DNA of 64,000 nucleotides, from contig PLNS01000006.1 of NCBI GenBank assembly GCA_003141855.1, positions 44,163-108,162 on the forward strand, read 5' to 3'. This stretch comes from Candidatus Bathyarchaeota archaeon. Lineage in GTDB: Archaea; Thermoproteota; Bathyarchaeia; Bathyarchaeales; Bathycorpusculaceae. The first letter of the stretch is position 1. Every line of letters begins with the position of its first letter. This document shows, piece after piece, positions 47,849 through 59,835 of the stretch. Under the pieces are notes generated by a model. That model did not search any database, was not told where the DNA came from, and saw only the letters and a list, made by a program, of their open reading frames with translations. The position numbers and the translations under genes were made by a program.

Positions 47849-47985
47849 TTTTCTAATCCACTTGGAATATTAAATCAGGTAATATATAGGATTAGCTCAT
47901 CACCAAAAACAAACGGCTTATCGGAAGATATAATTTGTGTTTTTGTGCGAAAAAGTTTTAATAACTAAAATGCCCAAGGAAGCTT

Positions 47986-48049
47986 GGCTATGGCATTAGC
48001 CGTGGCAGAGCCAGAACCGCAGCCGTAGAGGATGCTGATAATGCCTACC
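47986..48049 (+). ncRNA. fluoride riboswitch (crcB motif)
   Basis: P1 is formed by GGCATT (47992-47997) with AATGCC (48040-48045); the pseudoknot strands GGCT (47986-47989) and AGCC flank it. The conserved GCTGAT precedes the 3' P1 strand and TACC follows it; AGAACCGC occupies the AAAC-CGCC position. A small extra stem TGGC-AGA-GCCA is present. This order matches the fluoride aptamer, and a CrcB fluoride channel gene starts 23 nt downstream. An upstream CCAAG/CTTGG hairpin precedes it (47974-47987). Confidence 0.85.
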
Positions 48050-48071
48050 TACAAGGTTGGAAGGTAAGCAC

Positions 48072-54117: not shown

Positions 54118-54163
54118 TAGTGTACATAGATAATTAAATTCTAATTGAGAGGGAGAGGGGCTT

Positions 54164-54325
54164 ATGAGCCAAGGTGAAGATAGAGAGAGAAGAAAATACA
54201 GAATAGACATAGGGGCTTACGGCAGCATAGGAATTGAAGCGCCAACAAAAGAAGAGTGCTTGGAACTATTCAAAGAAGTCACAAGAACAAAACGTGACTC
54301 AAGAATAGACGAAGCAATAAGATAA
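54164..54325 (+). CDS. small conserved-looking protein
   Basis: 53 aa: MSQGEDRERRKYRIDIGAYG, then a helix rich in Glu/Lys (KEECLELFKEVTRTKR). GGGAGAGGGG lies 4-7 nt upstream of ATG 54164, one of the strongest RBSs of the window. It follows DUF2110 by 46 nt. The motif YRIDIGAYGSIGIEAPTKEE reads like a compact beta hairpin plus helix. Function unknown. Confidence 0.6.
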   Translation: MSQGEDRERRKYRIDIGAYGSIGIEAPTKEECLELFKEVTRTKRDSRIDEAIR

Positions 54326-54391
54326 CAGCAGCCGTACGCGTCCATATTACCCATTCACTTTTTTAGAAAGCTAAAGTCTAGCTTGCGGATT

Positions 54392-54562
54392 CTACAGGAC
54401 ATCGTGCTCTTCTTCGCAGTGCGCCTCATAATCCTCACGGTTATCGTAAACCTCTTGGTCTATGGGGCACTTGAACTTCTTCTCTTTGGTAATTTGGGGC
54501 TTTGGAATGGTTACCCGCGGCGCGGTACTCTTACAGTCGCTACAGTCATCATTTTCACACAT
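54392..54562 (-). CDS. small zinc-finger-like protein
   Basis: 56 aa read on the minus strand: MCENDDCSDCKSTAPR, then FKCPIDQEVYDNREDYEAHC and EEEHDVL at the end. Cys and His residues resemble a degenerate C2H2 finger plus a CxxC knuckle. GGAGGTGA lies 7 nt before ATG 54562, an ideal RBS. A hydrophobic plus-strand ORF over the same bases is a shadow. Convergent with the 53-aa gene. Confidence 0.7.
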   Translation of the reverse strand: MCENDDCSDCKSTAPRVTIPKPQITKEKKFKCPIDQEVYDNREDYEAHCEEEHDVL

Positions 54563-54735: not shown

Positions 54736-55122
54736 TTATTTTTCTGCGTTTGCAGCTTTTTTGCGGTAGAAGACAACGCCTACTGTACCCAAAACGACTG
54801 CTAGAGCGATTACTGCTGCCGCAATTAGAGCATCATCTGAACCTCCTGTTTGTGTGGCGATGAGGTTTGGTTCTGCTTCACCGGGCACTTGAGTGTCGTC
54901 TGCGGCTGTGCTGTTGCCTTGTATGGTGAATAATACGCCATCGCCTTGAGTTAGGGTTGAATTGTCACTTGAATCGGTGGCTGATCGGTCAGGTGCGGCT
55001 GTTGGTTCAGGAGGGGTTGTTGCGTCTGAAACGTTGTCGTCTGCAGCTGCCAAAGAAACGAAGGCTCCACTGAGGAGAACGGTTGCTAAGAGGGTTATGA
55101 CGATTAAGTTTTTGTTTTTCAT
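54736..55122 (-). CDS. secreted, membrane-anchored Asp/Thr-rich small protein
   Basis: 128 aa. Signal peptide (LIVITLLATVLLSGAFVSLAAA), a low-complexity acidic stretch rich in Asp, Thr, Ser, Pro (~27-95), then a C-terminal membrane helix (ALIAAAVIALAVVLGTVGVV) and a basic tail (YRKKAANAEK). It probably forms a surface stalk or glycosylated protein. It is next to the tRNA island boundary. Confidence 0.75.
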   Translation of the reverse strand: MKNKNLIVITLLATVLLSGAFVSLAAADDNVSDATTPPEPTAAPDRSATDSSDNSTLTQGDGVLFTIQGNSTAADDTQVPGEAEPNLIATQTGGSDDALIAAAVIALAVVLGTVGVVFYRKKAANAEK

Positions 55123-55251
55123 TTACATCCCTTGCTTGTTTAGACTAAGAAGGCTGGTTTATTTAGCATCAAGCATTCGAACAGAACGTCCAGTTTCTGG
55201 TACAATCCTCAAAAACATAGCTCTTTCTTGATTGAACGAATGAAAATTTAA

Positions 55252-55296
55252 AGTGGGCCGAGCCGGACTTGAACCGGCGACCTTTGGCTCATAAAG
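55252..55296 (-). repeat. displaced tRNA-Val 3' half (attachment-site scar)
   Basis: 45 nt identical, except one base, to the 3' half of the intact tRNA-Val at 58221-58265 (39 nt perfect, then one change in the anticodon, then 5 matches). It runs from the anticodon loop through the T-arm and acceptor strand to 1-2 bases past the discriminator. The 5' half is absent. It lies on the 3' side of the intact tRNA, as expected for a displaced attR/attL after integration. Confidence 0.85.
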
Positions 55297-55422
55297 ATAG
55301 ATAACCCGAGTTTTTCTCAGTTTTCCGTAAAAGCCGCGCGTGCCACACCCAAAAGCGTCAACGATACAGGCTATTTTTTGTATTTTTTGTTTTAATACAA
55401 ACTTTTTCGCGTGGTTATCACT

Positions 55423-55439
55423 AATTCAGATTCTGAATT
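55423..55439. promoter_or_regulatory. 17-bp palindrome upstream of the deacetylase
   Basis: AATTCAGA-T-TCTGAATT, perfect 8-bp arms, 48 nt before ATG 55487. A second AT-rich stem TTGTATT/AATACAA lies at about 55376-55400. Either could be an operator; the 190 nt from the att scar to the gene holds no ORF. Confidence 0.45.
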
Positions 55440-55486
55440 CATAAAGGTCAATAGTCTACATCGAGAATTTTGGGTTCGATGGTAAG

Positions 55487-56329
55487 ATGATGGAAAAAGC
55501 TAGCCTCTTAACTGTTCCACAAATTCACTTAGAAATGCCCTCGCCGATGTTGCCTGATGGGACACAGGCAGTGATATTGACGCATGACGTGGATTGGCCG
55601 CGAAAAGGTCCTGGAATTGAGCACATTCTAAGCCGGAGTGCCAGGTTTGATCCAAAGATAATAACTAAAGTAAAGTCGGAAGGCTTCAACCCATATTACG
55701 GCGTTCAGACTATTGCTGAAATCGAGGAACAATTTGGAATTAAGTCAACATTTTTCTTCAGGCCCACGTATGATGACGGAAGCAAAGTTGACGAATACAA
55801 GGACACGATAAGAGCCCTAATAAAGAATGGATGGGAAGTGGGTTTACATGCAAACAATACTTCGAGCGTTGAAGCGGTCAAGTCGGAAAAGAACTCACTT
55901 GAGAGAATTGCAGGGAAGCAAATATCTGGGTCCAGAGTACATTACTTAAGGGTTTCTTCAGACACGTTCCGCAATCTTGCTGAGGCAAAGATAAAATACG
56001 ATTCCTCAATCACCTTCGATAAAGAAAGCATCGACGCTAGAAACTCGGGCTGTTTGTTCAAAAACAGAGTTGCCGTTTTCCCCATCACATTTATGGATGC
56101 CTACCTTTTCACGTACATGGGACTCACTGAAAAAACCATAACCAAGTTCATTCTAAAAAAGATGCGAGAACTATTTTCTTCAGGCGTTCAAATAATGACA
56201 ATTCTTTGGCATGATAACTCGATTATGATGAAGGGTGGTCGCATTTACTCGAATTTGATTAAAGATATGTGCGCTCAGATGGATGTAACGTTTTTAAAAG
56301 GGATCGAAGCCTTTGAACTAGTAGCTTGA
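55487..56329 (+). CDS. polysaccharide deacetylase-like (NodB-homology) protein
   Basis: 280 aa CE4-type TIM-barrel features: LTHDVDWPRKG (Asp-Asp), FGIKSTFFFRPTYDDGS, GWEVGLHANNTSS (metal His), SRVHYLR (catalytic-type Arg), YDSSITFD and ILWHDNSIM near the end. Members deacetylate amino sugars or act on related bonds; the substrate here is unknown. First gene inside the tRNA-bounded island. The stop TGA is followed in the same frame by the transposase remnant. Confidence 0.78.
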   Translation: MMEKASLLTVPQIHLEMPSPMLPDGTQAVILTHDVDWPRKGPGIEHILSRSARFDPKIITKVKSEGFNPYYGVQTIAEIEEQFGIKSTFFFRPTYDDGSKVDEYKDTIRALIKNGWEVGLHANNTSSVEAVKSEKNSLERIAGKQISGSRVHYLRVSSDTFRNLAEAKIKYDSSITFDKESIDARNSGCLFKNRVAVFPITFMDAYLFTYMGLTEKTITKFILKKMRELFSSGVQIMTILWHDNSIMMKGGRIYSNLIKDMCAQMDVTFLKGIEAFELVA

Positions 56330-56473
56330 CTGTCTAGGCAGATGCTTTCCAAACATGATTTTCAATCTGTTGAAGACTTGGTTAGACAGATTCTGGCTTT
56401 CATCGATGAATACAACAAAGCTGCTGCGCCATTCGCTTGGACATACAAAGGCGAACCGCTAAAAATTAATTAA
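56330..56473 (+). pseudogene. IS630-type transposase C-terminal remnant
   Basis: The codons after the deacetylase stop read LSRQMLSKHDFQSVEDLVRQ, ILAFIDEYNKAAAPFAWTYK and GEPLKIN before TAA 56471. This matches the conserved end of IS630/Tc1-type DDE transposases (…ILAFI..YN..A.PF.WTYKG.PL). The rest of the transposase and both terminal repeats are missing. Confidence 0.8.
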
Positions 56474-56539
56474 GGATTTAAGGGGACTAAGTACTAGTTC
56501 AAAAACAACGAACCTCTTAATTATGGTGGGTGAGCAAGA

Positions 56540-57628
56540 ATGACAAACATATTAGTAACTGGATCTGGCGGAATTGGCGGAGTAAACTTTATACGAGCAT
56601 TAAGGCTGTCGGAAAAACAGCAAAACAAAAAATTACTCATAATATCCACTGATCACAACCCTTATTATCTAAAATTTTCTGGCTCAGATGTTAAACTTGT
56701 TTCGCCTAGGCATGATGACGACAGTTTTGTACCCCTGCTTATCAAATTAGTTGAGAAATACAACATTGAGTTTTTGCACCCTCATCCCAGTAGCGAAGCA
56801 CGAGTTGTTTCGGAAAATTTAGCGTCTTTTAAGAAAACAAAGGTTAAGACATATTTGCCTAAACCAACATCAATAATGCCTGACAAACTAGAAATCCACG
56901 ATGCCTTGGCGAAAAAACATGTACGCGTACCAAAAACAGTTGAAATAACCTCTTTTGAGGATATCGATAGGGCATTTTCAGAAATCGGCAAGCCTCTTTG
57001 GATAAGAGCCAAACGTGGTGCTGGTGGAAGACTAGGTTTAAAAGTTGAAACTCCAGAGGAGGCTAAGCATTGGGTAGAACTTAACAGGCTTCAGCATAGA
57101 GCCACTGTCGCCGACTTCATAATTCAGGAATATTTGCCGGGAAGAGATTTGGCTTTTGACTCATTATGGTTCAAAGGGCACCTTGTAACTTCTTACTGCA
57201 GAGAAAGGCTCGAATATTTTCTTAAGCACATTTCGCTTTCCGGGATCACTGGTACACCGACTATAGCGAGAACTTTTGTTGACGAGAAAGTTAATCGAAT
57301 CGGAGTGGAAGCCGTGAAAGCGATAGATTCTGAACCGCACGGTTTCTTCTCAACAGACATTAAAGAAGACGCATCAGGTAACTGTGTAGTTACTGAGGTT
57401 GATGGTAAATGGCACACAACAGCGCCGTTGTGGGGTTACGCTTTCGCCAAGGCACTGAATAAGCTAGAGTTGAACATAGCCTATCAATACCTCAGGTTGG
57501 CTTTGAACGGGGACACAGATGCTGATTTGCCCAACTACAACCTGTTCCCAGCAGACTACTACTTAGTCAGACAGCTAGACGCCGGCGTAATACTTGAGCA
57601 TGAGGATGCAACATGGCGAATAATATAG
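56540..57628 (+). CDS. ATP-grasp ligase (CarB-like)
   Basis: 362 aa. Rossmann-like preATP-grasp start ILVTGSGGIGGVNFIRAL, then ATP-grasp core: LWIRAKRGAGGRLGLKVE, DFIIQEYLPGRDLAFDSLW and CVVTEVDGKWHTTAPLW, where Asp/Glu ligate Mg. Such enzymes join a carboxylate to an amine or thiol; in surface-polysaccharide clusters they add amino acids to sugars, which would fit the deacetylase upstream. GGTGGGTGAG precedes the ATG. It overlaps the HAD gene by 16 nt. Confidence 0.82.
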   Translation: MTNILVTGSGGIGGVNFIRALRLSEKQQNKKLLIISTDHNPYYLKFSGSDVKLVSPRHDDDSFVPLLIKLVEKYNIEFLHPHPSSEARVVSENLASFKKTKVKTYLPKPTSIMPDKLEIHDALAKKHVRVPKTVEITSFEDIDRAFSEIGKPLWIRAKRGAGGRLGLKVETPEEAKHWVELNRLQHRATVADFIIQEYLPGRDLAFDSLWFKGHLVTSYCRERLEYFLKHISLSGITGTPTIARTFVDEKVNRIGVEAVKAIDSEPHGFFSTDIKEDASGNCVVTEVDGKWHTTAPLWGYAFAKALNKLELNIAYQYLRLALNGDTDADLPNYNLFPADYYLVRQLDAGVILEHEDATWRII

Positions 57629-58203
57629 ACATAACAAGAAAAGTTAAGGCAGTCGCCCTCGATTTCGACGGAGTAATCACAAACTTAAATATTGACTGGA
57701 ACGACGCCATACGCCAAGCATCCGAAATAGTCGGTCACGACATAAAGAGCCTCATCACGTTCTACGAGAACTGTTTTGGCACACCAATTTTTCAAAAAGT
57801 AAGCAACGAAATGGAAAAAATAGAACTATCAGCCGTAGAGAAAGCCCAAGCGGCACCTTTCGTTAAGGACGTCCTCCAAAAGCTTTCCGAAAAACAAGTC
57901 GAAGCCTATATCGTTTCTATGCAAAGTTTAAACGTGATCAAAACGTTCCTCGACCAGCATGAATTAGCCGCTTACTTTAAAGATATCATAACTCGAGAAA
58001 GGTGCCCCGGCAAGAAAGCTCAAGTTGAATGCATTGCGAAAATAACAGGGATTAGCCCTAACCAGATTTTGCTTGTTGACGATTCAAAGAGAAATATAAG
58101 TAATTGTAAAGAGCTCGGTGTCGTTTGCTTTTATTTTCAAAGAAAACAGAAACCAAAAGAAATCAGAGAAGCATGGAACAATATACTCAGTATAATAAAA
58201 TAG
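57613..58203 (+). CDS. HAD-superfamily hydrolase
   Basis: 196 aa. Motif I ALDFDGVITN (Asp17, Asp19), motif II VSMQSL, Lys in RCPGKKAQVECIA and motif IV LLVDDSKRNISNC. Cap type C1. Probably a sugar-phosphate or nucleotide-sugar phosphatase working with the ATP-grasp ligase; the substrate is unknown. It ends 17 nt before the island's right repeat. Confidence 0.85.
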   Translation: MANNIDITRKVKAVALDFDGVITNLNIDWNDAIRQASEIVGHDIKSLITFYENCFGTPIFQKVSNEMEKIELSAVEKAQAAPFVKDVLQKLSEKQVEAYIVSMQSLNVIKTFLDQHELAAYFKDIITRERCPGKKAQVECIAKITGISPNQILLVDDSKRNISNCKELGVVCFYFQRKQKPKEIREAWNNILSIIK

Positions 58204-58222
58204 CATCTTGAATTTTTTGGAG

Positions 58223-58297
58223 TGGGCCGAGCCGGACTTGAACCGGCGACCTTTGGCTCGTAAAGCCAACGTCCTAACCAGACTAGACGACCGGCCC
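58223..58297 (-). tRNA. tRNA-Val (UAC anticodon)
   Basis: 75 nt cloverleaf: acceptor GGGCCGG/TCGGCCC with A73, D-stem GTCT/GGAC, anticodon stem TTGGC/GCCAA with loop TTTACGA (anticodon TAC), T-arm GCCGG-TTCAAGT-CCGGC. CCA is not encoded. No intron. Its 3' half is repeated at 55252-55296. Confidence 0.93.
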
Positions 58298-58461: not shown

Positions 58462-59835
58462 ATGCTATTGCTGGGAAGCTTTGAAGTGGAATGGAAAAGT
58501 TTTAGAGACCTCTTAGGTGCGCATTTCCAATTAATCGGAGTCTTACTGGGCGCTCTCCTCGTTGCCGTGTCAACTGGAACTTACATCAATTGGGATTCCC
58601 AGCTTGAGTTTGAAGCCGCTTCAAGCGTGGTTACCCGCGGGTTCCCCTTCGTGACAACGGGACTTATGATTAATCAGCCGCCATTAGGCTTCTACATGGA
58701 TGCGCCAGTTTTCCAAGCATTCGGCTTATCCTACCTTAACGGGGTGAGCTTGATTACTGCCTTTGGGCTTGGCTGCGTCGTTCTCGTCTATGCTTTGGGC
58801 TGCGTGTTGTATGGGAAGAGGACGGGGTTGGTGGCAGCTGCGCTCTTCGGCGTCGTTCCCTGGCACGTTTACATGTCGAGAATTTTTCTCATCGACAGCC
58901 AAAGCCTGTTTTTCAGCCTGCTCTTTTTGACTGTTGGGGTTTTGGCTGTTCGCAAGAATTCCCAGAAGCTATTATTAGTTTCAGGAATAGTTTTTTCTTT
59001 GGCTCTTCTGACCAAACTTTTTGCTGTGTTTATGCTGGTTCCTCTTTTGTTGATTATTTATTTAAAACGAAAAGAAGGCGGATTCAAACTTACTTTGAGA
59101 AATGCGTTGATTTTTCTTGTGCCGTCATTTGTTTTGCAGGCAGTTTGGTTTGTAGGTTTTGCCAGCCAAAACTTTTTTGGGGTTTATTTAAGCAGCGACT
59201 TCACCCATCCAGTGCTCGTAGCTGACCCTTCACTGTTGTTTTTGCCCATAATCCTTGTTAAAAGCGCAGGGTGGTTTCTATTTGCGGCGGGGCTTTTCTC
59301 TTTAGCGCTATCAGTTTTCTACAGGAAAGTTTTTGCGAGAATCCTGCGGTTGGATGCTGTTTGCGTCGGAACCATAGCGGCTGTCGCTGGGCTAGATTTA
59401 TTGTTTGTTTTTGGTTTCCATTTGACTGTGCCGTATGTGAGTGCTTTCAAGTACAATTATGTGGCTTTACCGTTTTTCTGTCTGCTCGCGGCGTCGTTGG
59501 CGGATAAGGGCGGTTTGTTGATTGCCTCGATAGAGTCCAAGAGAAAAATTGGTTTAATTAAGCCATTTCTTGTCGGGTTGGGACTTGTTTTGCTGTTTGC
59601 TTCGATGCTTGAAAGCTTGGCGTTTCTGAATAAGTGGGTTGGGTTTGTGGCTTTCGGCGTTGACTCCGTCACTTATTACCCGTTTGACGTGTTCTCCTCG
59701 CCGATGGAGAGCGGCTACTTTGAAGTGTTCCATTATGCAGCCATCGTTTTGGTGGTGTTTAGCGTCGCGTTACCTTTGTTAGTGAGGGGTTTAAAGAAGT
59801 CGTTTGACTGGTTATCGACGGTACTTTCCAAGTGA
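58462..59835 (+). CDS. GT39-like (PMT/ArnT-type) membrane glycosyltransferase
   Basis: 457 aa with about ten membrane helices. The first external loop carries WDSQLEFEAASSV ... INQPPLGFYMDAP, the Asp/Glu-rich site typical of dolichyl-phosphate-mannose mannosyltransferase-like enzymes, followed by YMSRIFLIDSQSLFFSLLFL. It probably moves a lipid-linked sugar onto a surface acceptor. ATTTTAAAAT at ~58436 is a likely TATA box. It lies directly outside the tRNA-bounded island. Confidence 0.8.
   Translation: MLLLGSFEVEWKSFRDLLGAHFQLIGVLLGALLVAVSTGTYINWDSQLEFEAASSVVTRGFPFVTTGLMINQPPLGFYMDAPVFQAFGLSYLNGVSLITAFGLGCVVLVYALGCVLYGKRTGLVAAALFGVVPWHVYMSRIFLIDSQSLFFSLLFLTVGVLAVRKNSQKLLLVSGIVFSLALLTKLFAVFMLVPLLLIIYLKRKEGGFKLTLRNALIFLVPSFVLQAVWFVGFASQNFFGVYLSSDFTHPVLVADPSLLFLPIILVKSAGWFLFAAGLFSLALSVFYRKVFARILRLDAVCVGTIAAVAGLDLLFVFGFHLTVPYVSAFKYNYVALPFFCLLAASLADKGGLLIASIESKRKIGLIKPFLVGLGLVLLFASMLESLAFLNKWVGFVAFGVDSVTYYPFDVFSSPMESGYFEVFHYAAIVLVVFSVALPLLVRGLKKSFDWLSTVLSK

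Follow-up and report, generated by a model that had tools for sequence, protein, structure and literature searches.

Gene content of the island and its surroundings

The window, that is the whole stretch of 64,000 nucleotides analyzed here, is part of contig C8 of a Candidatus Bathyarchaeota genome (G000; 2.39 Mb, 30 contigs, 96% complete, 3% contamination). Its sole tRNA gene is a tRNA-Val with anticodon TAC, and between this gene and a lone copy of its 3' half lies an island of three intact plus-strand genes and a transposase remnant. The G+C content of the island (41.1%) was the lowest of all 2.9-kb stretches of the window, which averaged 45.9%, and its composition looks foreign. To the left is a minus-strand host gene for a surface or anchor protein (54736 to 55122), also found to the left of the empty site in relatives, and to the right of the tRNA is a plus-strand host gene for a PMT_2 mannosyltransferase (58462 to 59835), which keeps the same position at empty sites. 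A preliminary description made from the sequence alone had listed deacetylase-like, ATP-grasp and HAD genes together with a transposase remnant, and all four were recovered in the present analysis.

The island begins with a non-coding stretch (55297 to 55486) in which the C-terminal part of an integrase was absent by tblastn. The first gene (55487 to 56329, plus strand) encodes a 280-aa protein resembling WbmS-like or CE4-type polysaccharide deacetylases, with scores just under the curated Pfam cut-offs for membership (PF22537, E-value 1.6e-5, 25.4 bits against a cut-off of 27; PF01522, 2.5e-4, 21.4 against 23.1 bits) and a match to the NCBIfam VimE deacetylase (5e-9). Since its HDVDWP motif was kept in six homologues despite the sub-threshold Pfam scores, the protein is predicted to work like these enzymes rather than to be a member of the WbmS-like/CE4 families. 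It is followed by a remnant of 43 codons (56340 to 56471, plus strand), the C-terminus of an IS630-family transposase with 49-51% identity to other IS630 transposases (tblastn against plasmids: 51% to Calothrix, 49% to Brasilonema) and present as a single copy in the genome. A Pfam search with the 43-aa remnant gave no match, and an IS3 identity, for which there was a weak NCBIfam match only, was set aside once the plasmid tblastn had settled the family as IS630.

The second gene (56540 to 57628, plus strand) encodes a 362-aa ATP-grasp ligase of the carbamoyl-phosphate-synthase-like or PylC-like kind, with a PF02655 match just under the cut-off (E-value 1.3e-4), a match to the PRK12767 family (2e-16) and similarity to PDB structures 2pn1 and 3vpb. 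The third (57613 to 58203, plus strand) encodes a 196-aa HAD phosphatase with a Pfam score above the cut-off (PF13419, 3e-12) and the DxDG motif; its LDFDGV motif is intact and invariant in six homologues. The HAD stop codon is only 18 bp away from the 3' end of the tRNA. Beyond the three genes and the IS remnant, the island held no replication or structural genes of an element's own.

The gene families point to a probable role of the cargo in modifying sugars of the cell surface or of glycoproteins, through deacetylation, ATP-dependent carboxylate-amine ligation and dephosphorylation, which upholds the function first suggested for it. A sugar role is also supported by analogy, because a related operon of the order, with ATP-grasp and HAD genes at 39-42% identity, is accompanied by a nucleotide-sugar dehydrogenase, DUF354 and glycosyltransferases. 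In its gene families the island resembles known sugar-modification operons combining a WbmS-like deacetylase, a PylC-like or carbamoyl-phosphate-synthase-like ATP-grasp protein and a HAD protein; unlike those operons, the close form found here was present in 7 of the 257 genomes of the class, and six of these belong to the genus of the window.

Two further features were observed elsewhere in the window. A fluoride riboswitch (crcB motif) lies at 47977 to 48054 on the plus strand (37.7 bits), and two short convergent protein genes, conserved throughout the genus and one of them zinc-finger-like, occupy about 54160 to 54560, after DUF2110. A conserved non-coding RNA had been considered for the latter region (54188 to 54526); Rfam gave no match, and the alignment was that of the two protein genes.

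The tRNA-Val repeat and the island borders

Self-comparison of the window identified a direct repeat (55247 to 55296 and 58216 to 58265) with 94% identity over 50 nt. The part inside the tRNA is identical at 43 of 44 positions (55253 to 55296 against 58222 to 58265), and with the flanking A (55252 to 55296 against 58221 to 58265) it consists of 39 perfectly matched nucleotides, one mismatch and five further identical positions, exactly the figures reported at the outset. The next best match to the repeat in the window reached 23-24 of 45 positions. One copy belongs to the intact tRNA-Val(UAC) gene, the attachment gene (58222 to 58297, minus strand; ARAGORN; Rfam 64.5 bits), whose upstream flank is kept in relatives. 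The other is a displaced 3' half of tRNA-Val(UAC) and forms one att border (55253 to 55296, minus strand). It spans the anticodon loop to the tRNA 3' end, lies 3' of the intact gene at a spacing of about 2.9-2.97 kb, as first described, and breaks off abruptly at the anticodon loop, past which there is no similarity to the 5' half.

The lone half was recognized genome-wide with an E-value of 7e-16, and the other clear matches in the genome were the related tRNA-Val(GAC), Ile and Gly genes, so that it does not belong to a set of dispersed tRNA fragments. In alignments of the window genome with its relatives the promoter side (5' flank) of tRNA-Val was conserved. The insertion is thus located 3' of the gene, where integration into a tRNA 3' half would put it. 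The borders show the arrangement of SSV-type integration, with a repeat of 40-50 bp of the tRNA 3' part on both sides and a rebuilt tRNA.

Empty sites and other scars at tRNA-Val in relatives

An empty site was found in five Bathyarchaeota of the same genus (G006, G007, G011, G018 and G024), each with one tRNA-Val, hence one copy of the repeat, and without the three genes. The order at these sites is DUF2110, a minus-strand surface protein (in four of five) and the single tRNA-Val, followed in G006, G007, G018 and G024 by the mannosyltransferase gene. Together with the geometry of the repeats, these empty sites bear out the original proposal of site-specific integration at a tRNA gene. In a DNA polymerase tree G022 and G024 were closest to the window genome, and the cassette was absent anywhere in either of them.

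Displaced halves of tRNA-Val(UAC) were present in 6 of 32 members of the genus (G000, G003, G014, G019, G022 and G044). The rebuilt tRNA-Val of G014 has a foreign T-arm and acceptor half, and the ordinary original half is displaced beside the C-terminal integrase part, intC (L091:1096-1173, L092:1183-1229); with T-arms that differ, the exchange is shown directly. A decayed integrase adjoins the tRNA-Val half in G044. G022 carries an integrase-less scar at tRNA-Val (L076:11189-12107), 844 bp apart and with different content, including a small antitoxin-like gene.

A family of split integrases at tRNA genes of the genus

In G003 an element of 5.4 kb lies between tRNA-Val and its displaced half (L057:3942-9350), and in G019 the two ends of an element lie on two contigs. 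In both genomes the C-terminal part of an integrase starts inside the half, with the residues NRRPLARKA encoded by the tRNA half itself, while the N-terminal part (MLSK..ELEYLKSPEKF..; 58% alike between the two) adjoins the intact tRNA, so that intC and intN stand at opposite borders. The C-terminal part matches Phage_integr_3 (PF16795). Members of this family open in displaced halves of tRNA-Val(UAC), Val(GAC), Thr, Leu, Pro, Gly and Ala across the genus (loci L133, L134, L136, L137, L139, L140, L145, L147, L148, L152 and L154), and the lone half of the window has the same extent as these integrase-opening halves, those of G003, G019 and G014 included: about 45 nt between the anticodon loop and the 3' end.

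Several additional features were observed in these elements. Beside its split integrase the 5.4-kb element of G003 carries a CAP12/Pycsar-type TIR-domain protein (PF10137, 3e-15), likely a defence gene, and the lone half of G003 contains an NN join. One element end in G019 (L074) encodes intC and a 777-aa primase-like protein (PriCT_1).

The island itself does not have intN and intC at its two borders. A tblastn search of it with 14 family members and intN matched only residues for which the tRNA half codes, in agreement with the earlier statement that it lacks an integrase. It had also been proposed that an integrase with att sites in tRNA-Val be sought: such enzymes occur in relatives (G003, G019), and no member of the Phage_integr_3 family was found at an E-value of 1e-6 in the window genome, which has four integrases of PF00589. 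This Phage_integr_3 integrase was likewise not found in viral contigs.

Distribution of the cassette in the genus

In all six genomes of the genus with the close-form ATP-grasp gene, the deacetylase and HAD genes flank it. The cassette occupies five sites in these six genomes, and four of the sites have no tRNA halves. In G013 it separates exactly two small convergent genes that are direct neighbours in the window genome (about 54325 to 54392). The G003 copy has a PQQ-like gene on one side and a regulator gene on the other, and is near the tRNA-bounded element and outside it; the copies of G011 and G018 are both flanked by an RNA-methylase-like gene and the gene for DNA polymerase B. The G017 copy, about 2.6 kb, was inserted cleanly and with no repeats next to an agmatinase-like gene, with a small gene on its other side; the corresponding spot is empty in contig C13 of the window genome. 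In G013 and G003 the cassette is near DUF2110, as in the window, but outside any att pair.

None of the five other copies had a tRNA, a tRNA half or flanking repeats at its borders, and the suggestion that the same repeat-flanked island might recur elsewhere was accordingly not borne out. The cassette was also absent from the viral contigs of IMG/VR. Its proteins are 30-37% different between most species, which indicates that the copies are old, and a tree-conflict test of horizontal transfer for G000, G003 and G017 gave an AU p of 0.20. The idea of a new kind of tRNA-borne cassette is not supported by these comparisons, since five relatives carry the genes at four tRNA-free sites and the G003 copy is outside the tRNA-bounded element of that genome.

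A different ATP-grasp (PylC-like) and HAD operon is found 5' of tRNA-Val in ten members of the genus (L063, L061, L062, L066, L071, L072, L126, L127, L128 and L129). No genome among those examined contained both this 5'-side operon and the close cassette.

Origin of the island

The borders of the island are a genuine integration scar of the Phage_integr_3 class of integrases, at a place that is empty in relatives. The cargo is a separately relocating cassette, because the same genes occupy four tRNA-free sites and lie outside the element of G003. The reading that best accommodates both, to which we assign a probability of roughly 0.58, is that a DNA circle with the three genes as cargo was integrated into the 3' half of tRNA-Val(UAC). 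An SSV-type ('suicidal', Phage_integr_3) tyrosine integrase would have joined the circle to the tRNA gene; the circle would itself have carried a copy of the tRNA 3' half, recombination restoring an intact tRNA on one side and displacing the original half by 2.9 kb, and the three genes would have entered as cargo of the circle. The integrase and replication genes of the element would subsequently have been lost, or may have been absent from the start, with integration in trans. As the integrase is gone, the island cannot now move by itself.

Drift at 1 of 44 bases in the lone half makes the integration look recent when set against the age of the cassette. With no trace of an integrase at the two borders, a recent event is consistent with rapid loss as well as with an integrase-less circle integrated in trans. 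The same observation counts against the reading: with the half drifted by one base and no integrase or replication trace left, any loss had to be rapid and to leave nothing behind at the two borders. The cassette copies without tRNA halves or repeats at four sites in relatives, and their absence from IMG/VR, also count against it.

A possible though less probable course is that an ordinary suicidal-integrase element decayed at tRNA-Val and that the cassette later replaced its remains by illegitimate or homologous recombination. The four sites without tRNA halves, the repeat-free insertion in G017 at a spot vacant in the window genome, and the copies close to DUF2110 and outside att pairs in G013 and G003 all speak for this course, as does the integrase-less scar of G022, with other content, at the same tRNA. 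Such a course nevertheless needs a second event placed exactly between borders no more than 3 kb apart, with all other DNA of the element removed and just 18 bp left at one end. A cassette riding in on a since-stripped element is therefore favoured over one landing in the remains of an element.

It is rather unlikely that the three genes and one tRNA-Val half constitute a minimal non-autonomous integrating cassette, inserted in trans by the suicidal integrases of other elements; if they did, sugar-modification genes of the host type would be disseminated by self-splitting integrases to which they are not linked. An assembly artefact, in which a chromosome with an empty tRNA-Val and a separate molecule were joined at the 44-nt repeat, is improbable. 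The multi-contig, 96% complete assembly with 3% contamination and the NN join within the G003 half speak for such an error, but one wrong join cannot yield the order half, cassette, tRNA; the cassette would still be flanked by a half, which amounts to an att-bearing circle or element, and the mismatch in the lone half separates the two copies. Hardly credible is a random dispersed tRNA fragment beside an ordinary resident operon: ATP-grasp and HAD genes of the 39-42% type do lie 5' of tRNA-Val in ten other members of the genus, but they form a separate subfamily, stand across the tRNA from the island and belong to an operon found throughout the order. Relatives lack such genes at the position of the island, which is 3' of the tRNA, with a half ending sharply at the anticodon loop and the promoter side as the conserved side.

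Relation to known systems and significance

The suicidal integrases of SSV, pTN3 and pT26-2 have a Phage_integr_3 domain and att sites of 40-50 bp (PMC8371274). As in SSV1, pTN3 and pT26-2, attachment is in the 3' part of a tRNA, a repeat of 40-50 bp is formed and the tRNA is rebuilt (PMC8371274), and relatives in the genus have the split integrase of such elements at the same tRNA. Unlike SSV1, pTN3 and pT26-2, the island has no intN or intC and no replication or structural genes, and is only 2.9 kb long. A 2021 review ascribes the suicidal-integrase system to hyperthermophilic archaea and does not mention Bathyarchaeota; the host lineage is outside the groups listed there (PMC8371274). Caldiarchaeum offers another archaeal case, a tRNA-Thr locus with a lone fragment 1.8 kb from the gene that was ascribed to an integrated mobile element; unlike the present island, that locus retains a recombinase, its fragment derives from the 5' part, and it involves tRNA introns (PMC3293823).

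The island may also be compared with cis-mobilizable elements of the CIME kind. The term CIME originates from bacterial integrative elements. As in a CIME, the cargo lies between two att sites with no recombinase gene, and a related integrase could move it. No matching integrase of the Phage_integr_3 family was found in the window genome at an E-value of 1e-6, and the five other cassette copies include no second att-bounded integrated copy. The island is of a known kind, a decayed or non-autonomous suicidal-integrase element.

The locus provides a clear tRNA integration scar whose enzyme class is identifiable through relatives. Arguably the more useful result is that a suicidal integrase family employs at least seven tRNA genes in a genus of Bathyarchaeota: this places self-splitting integrases in a genus with bog and sediment members, in which one tRNA gene has been used repeatedly. 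Furthermore, a surface-sugar cassette shifts position between related archaea, which would matter if viruses recognizing surface sugars put pressure on these genes.
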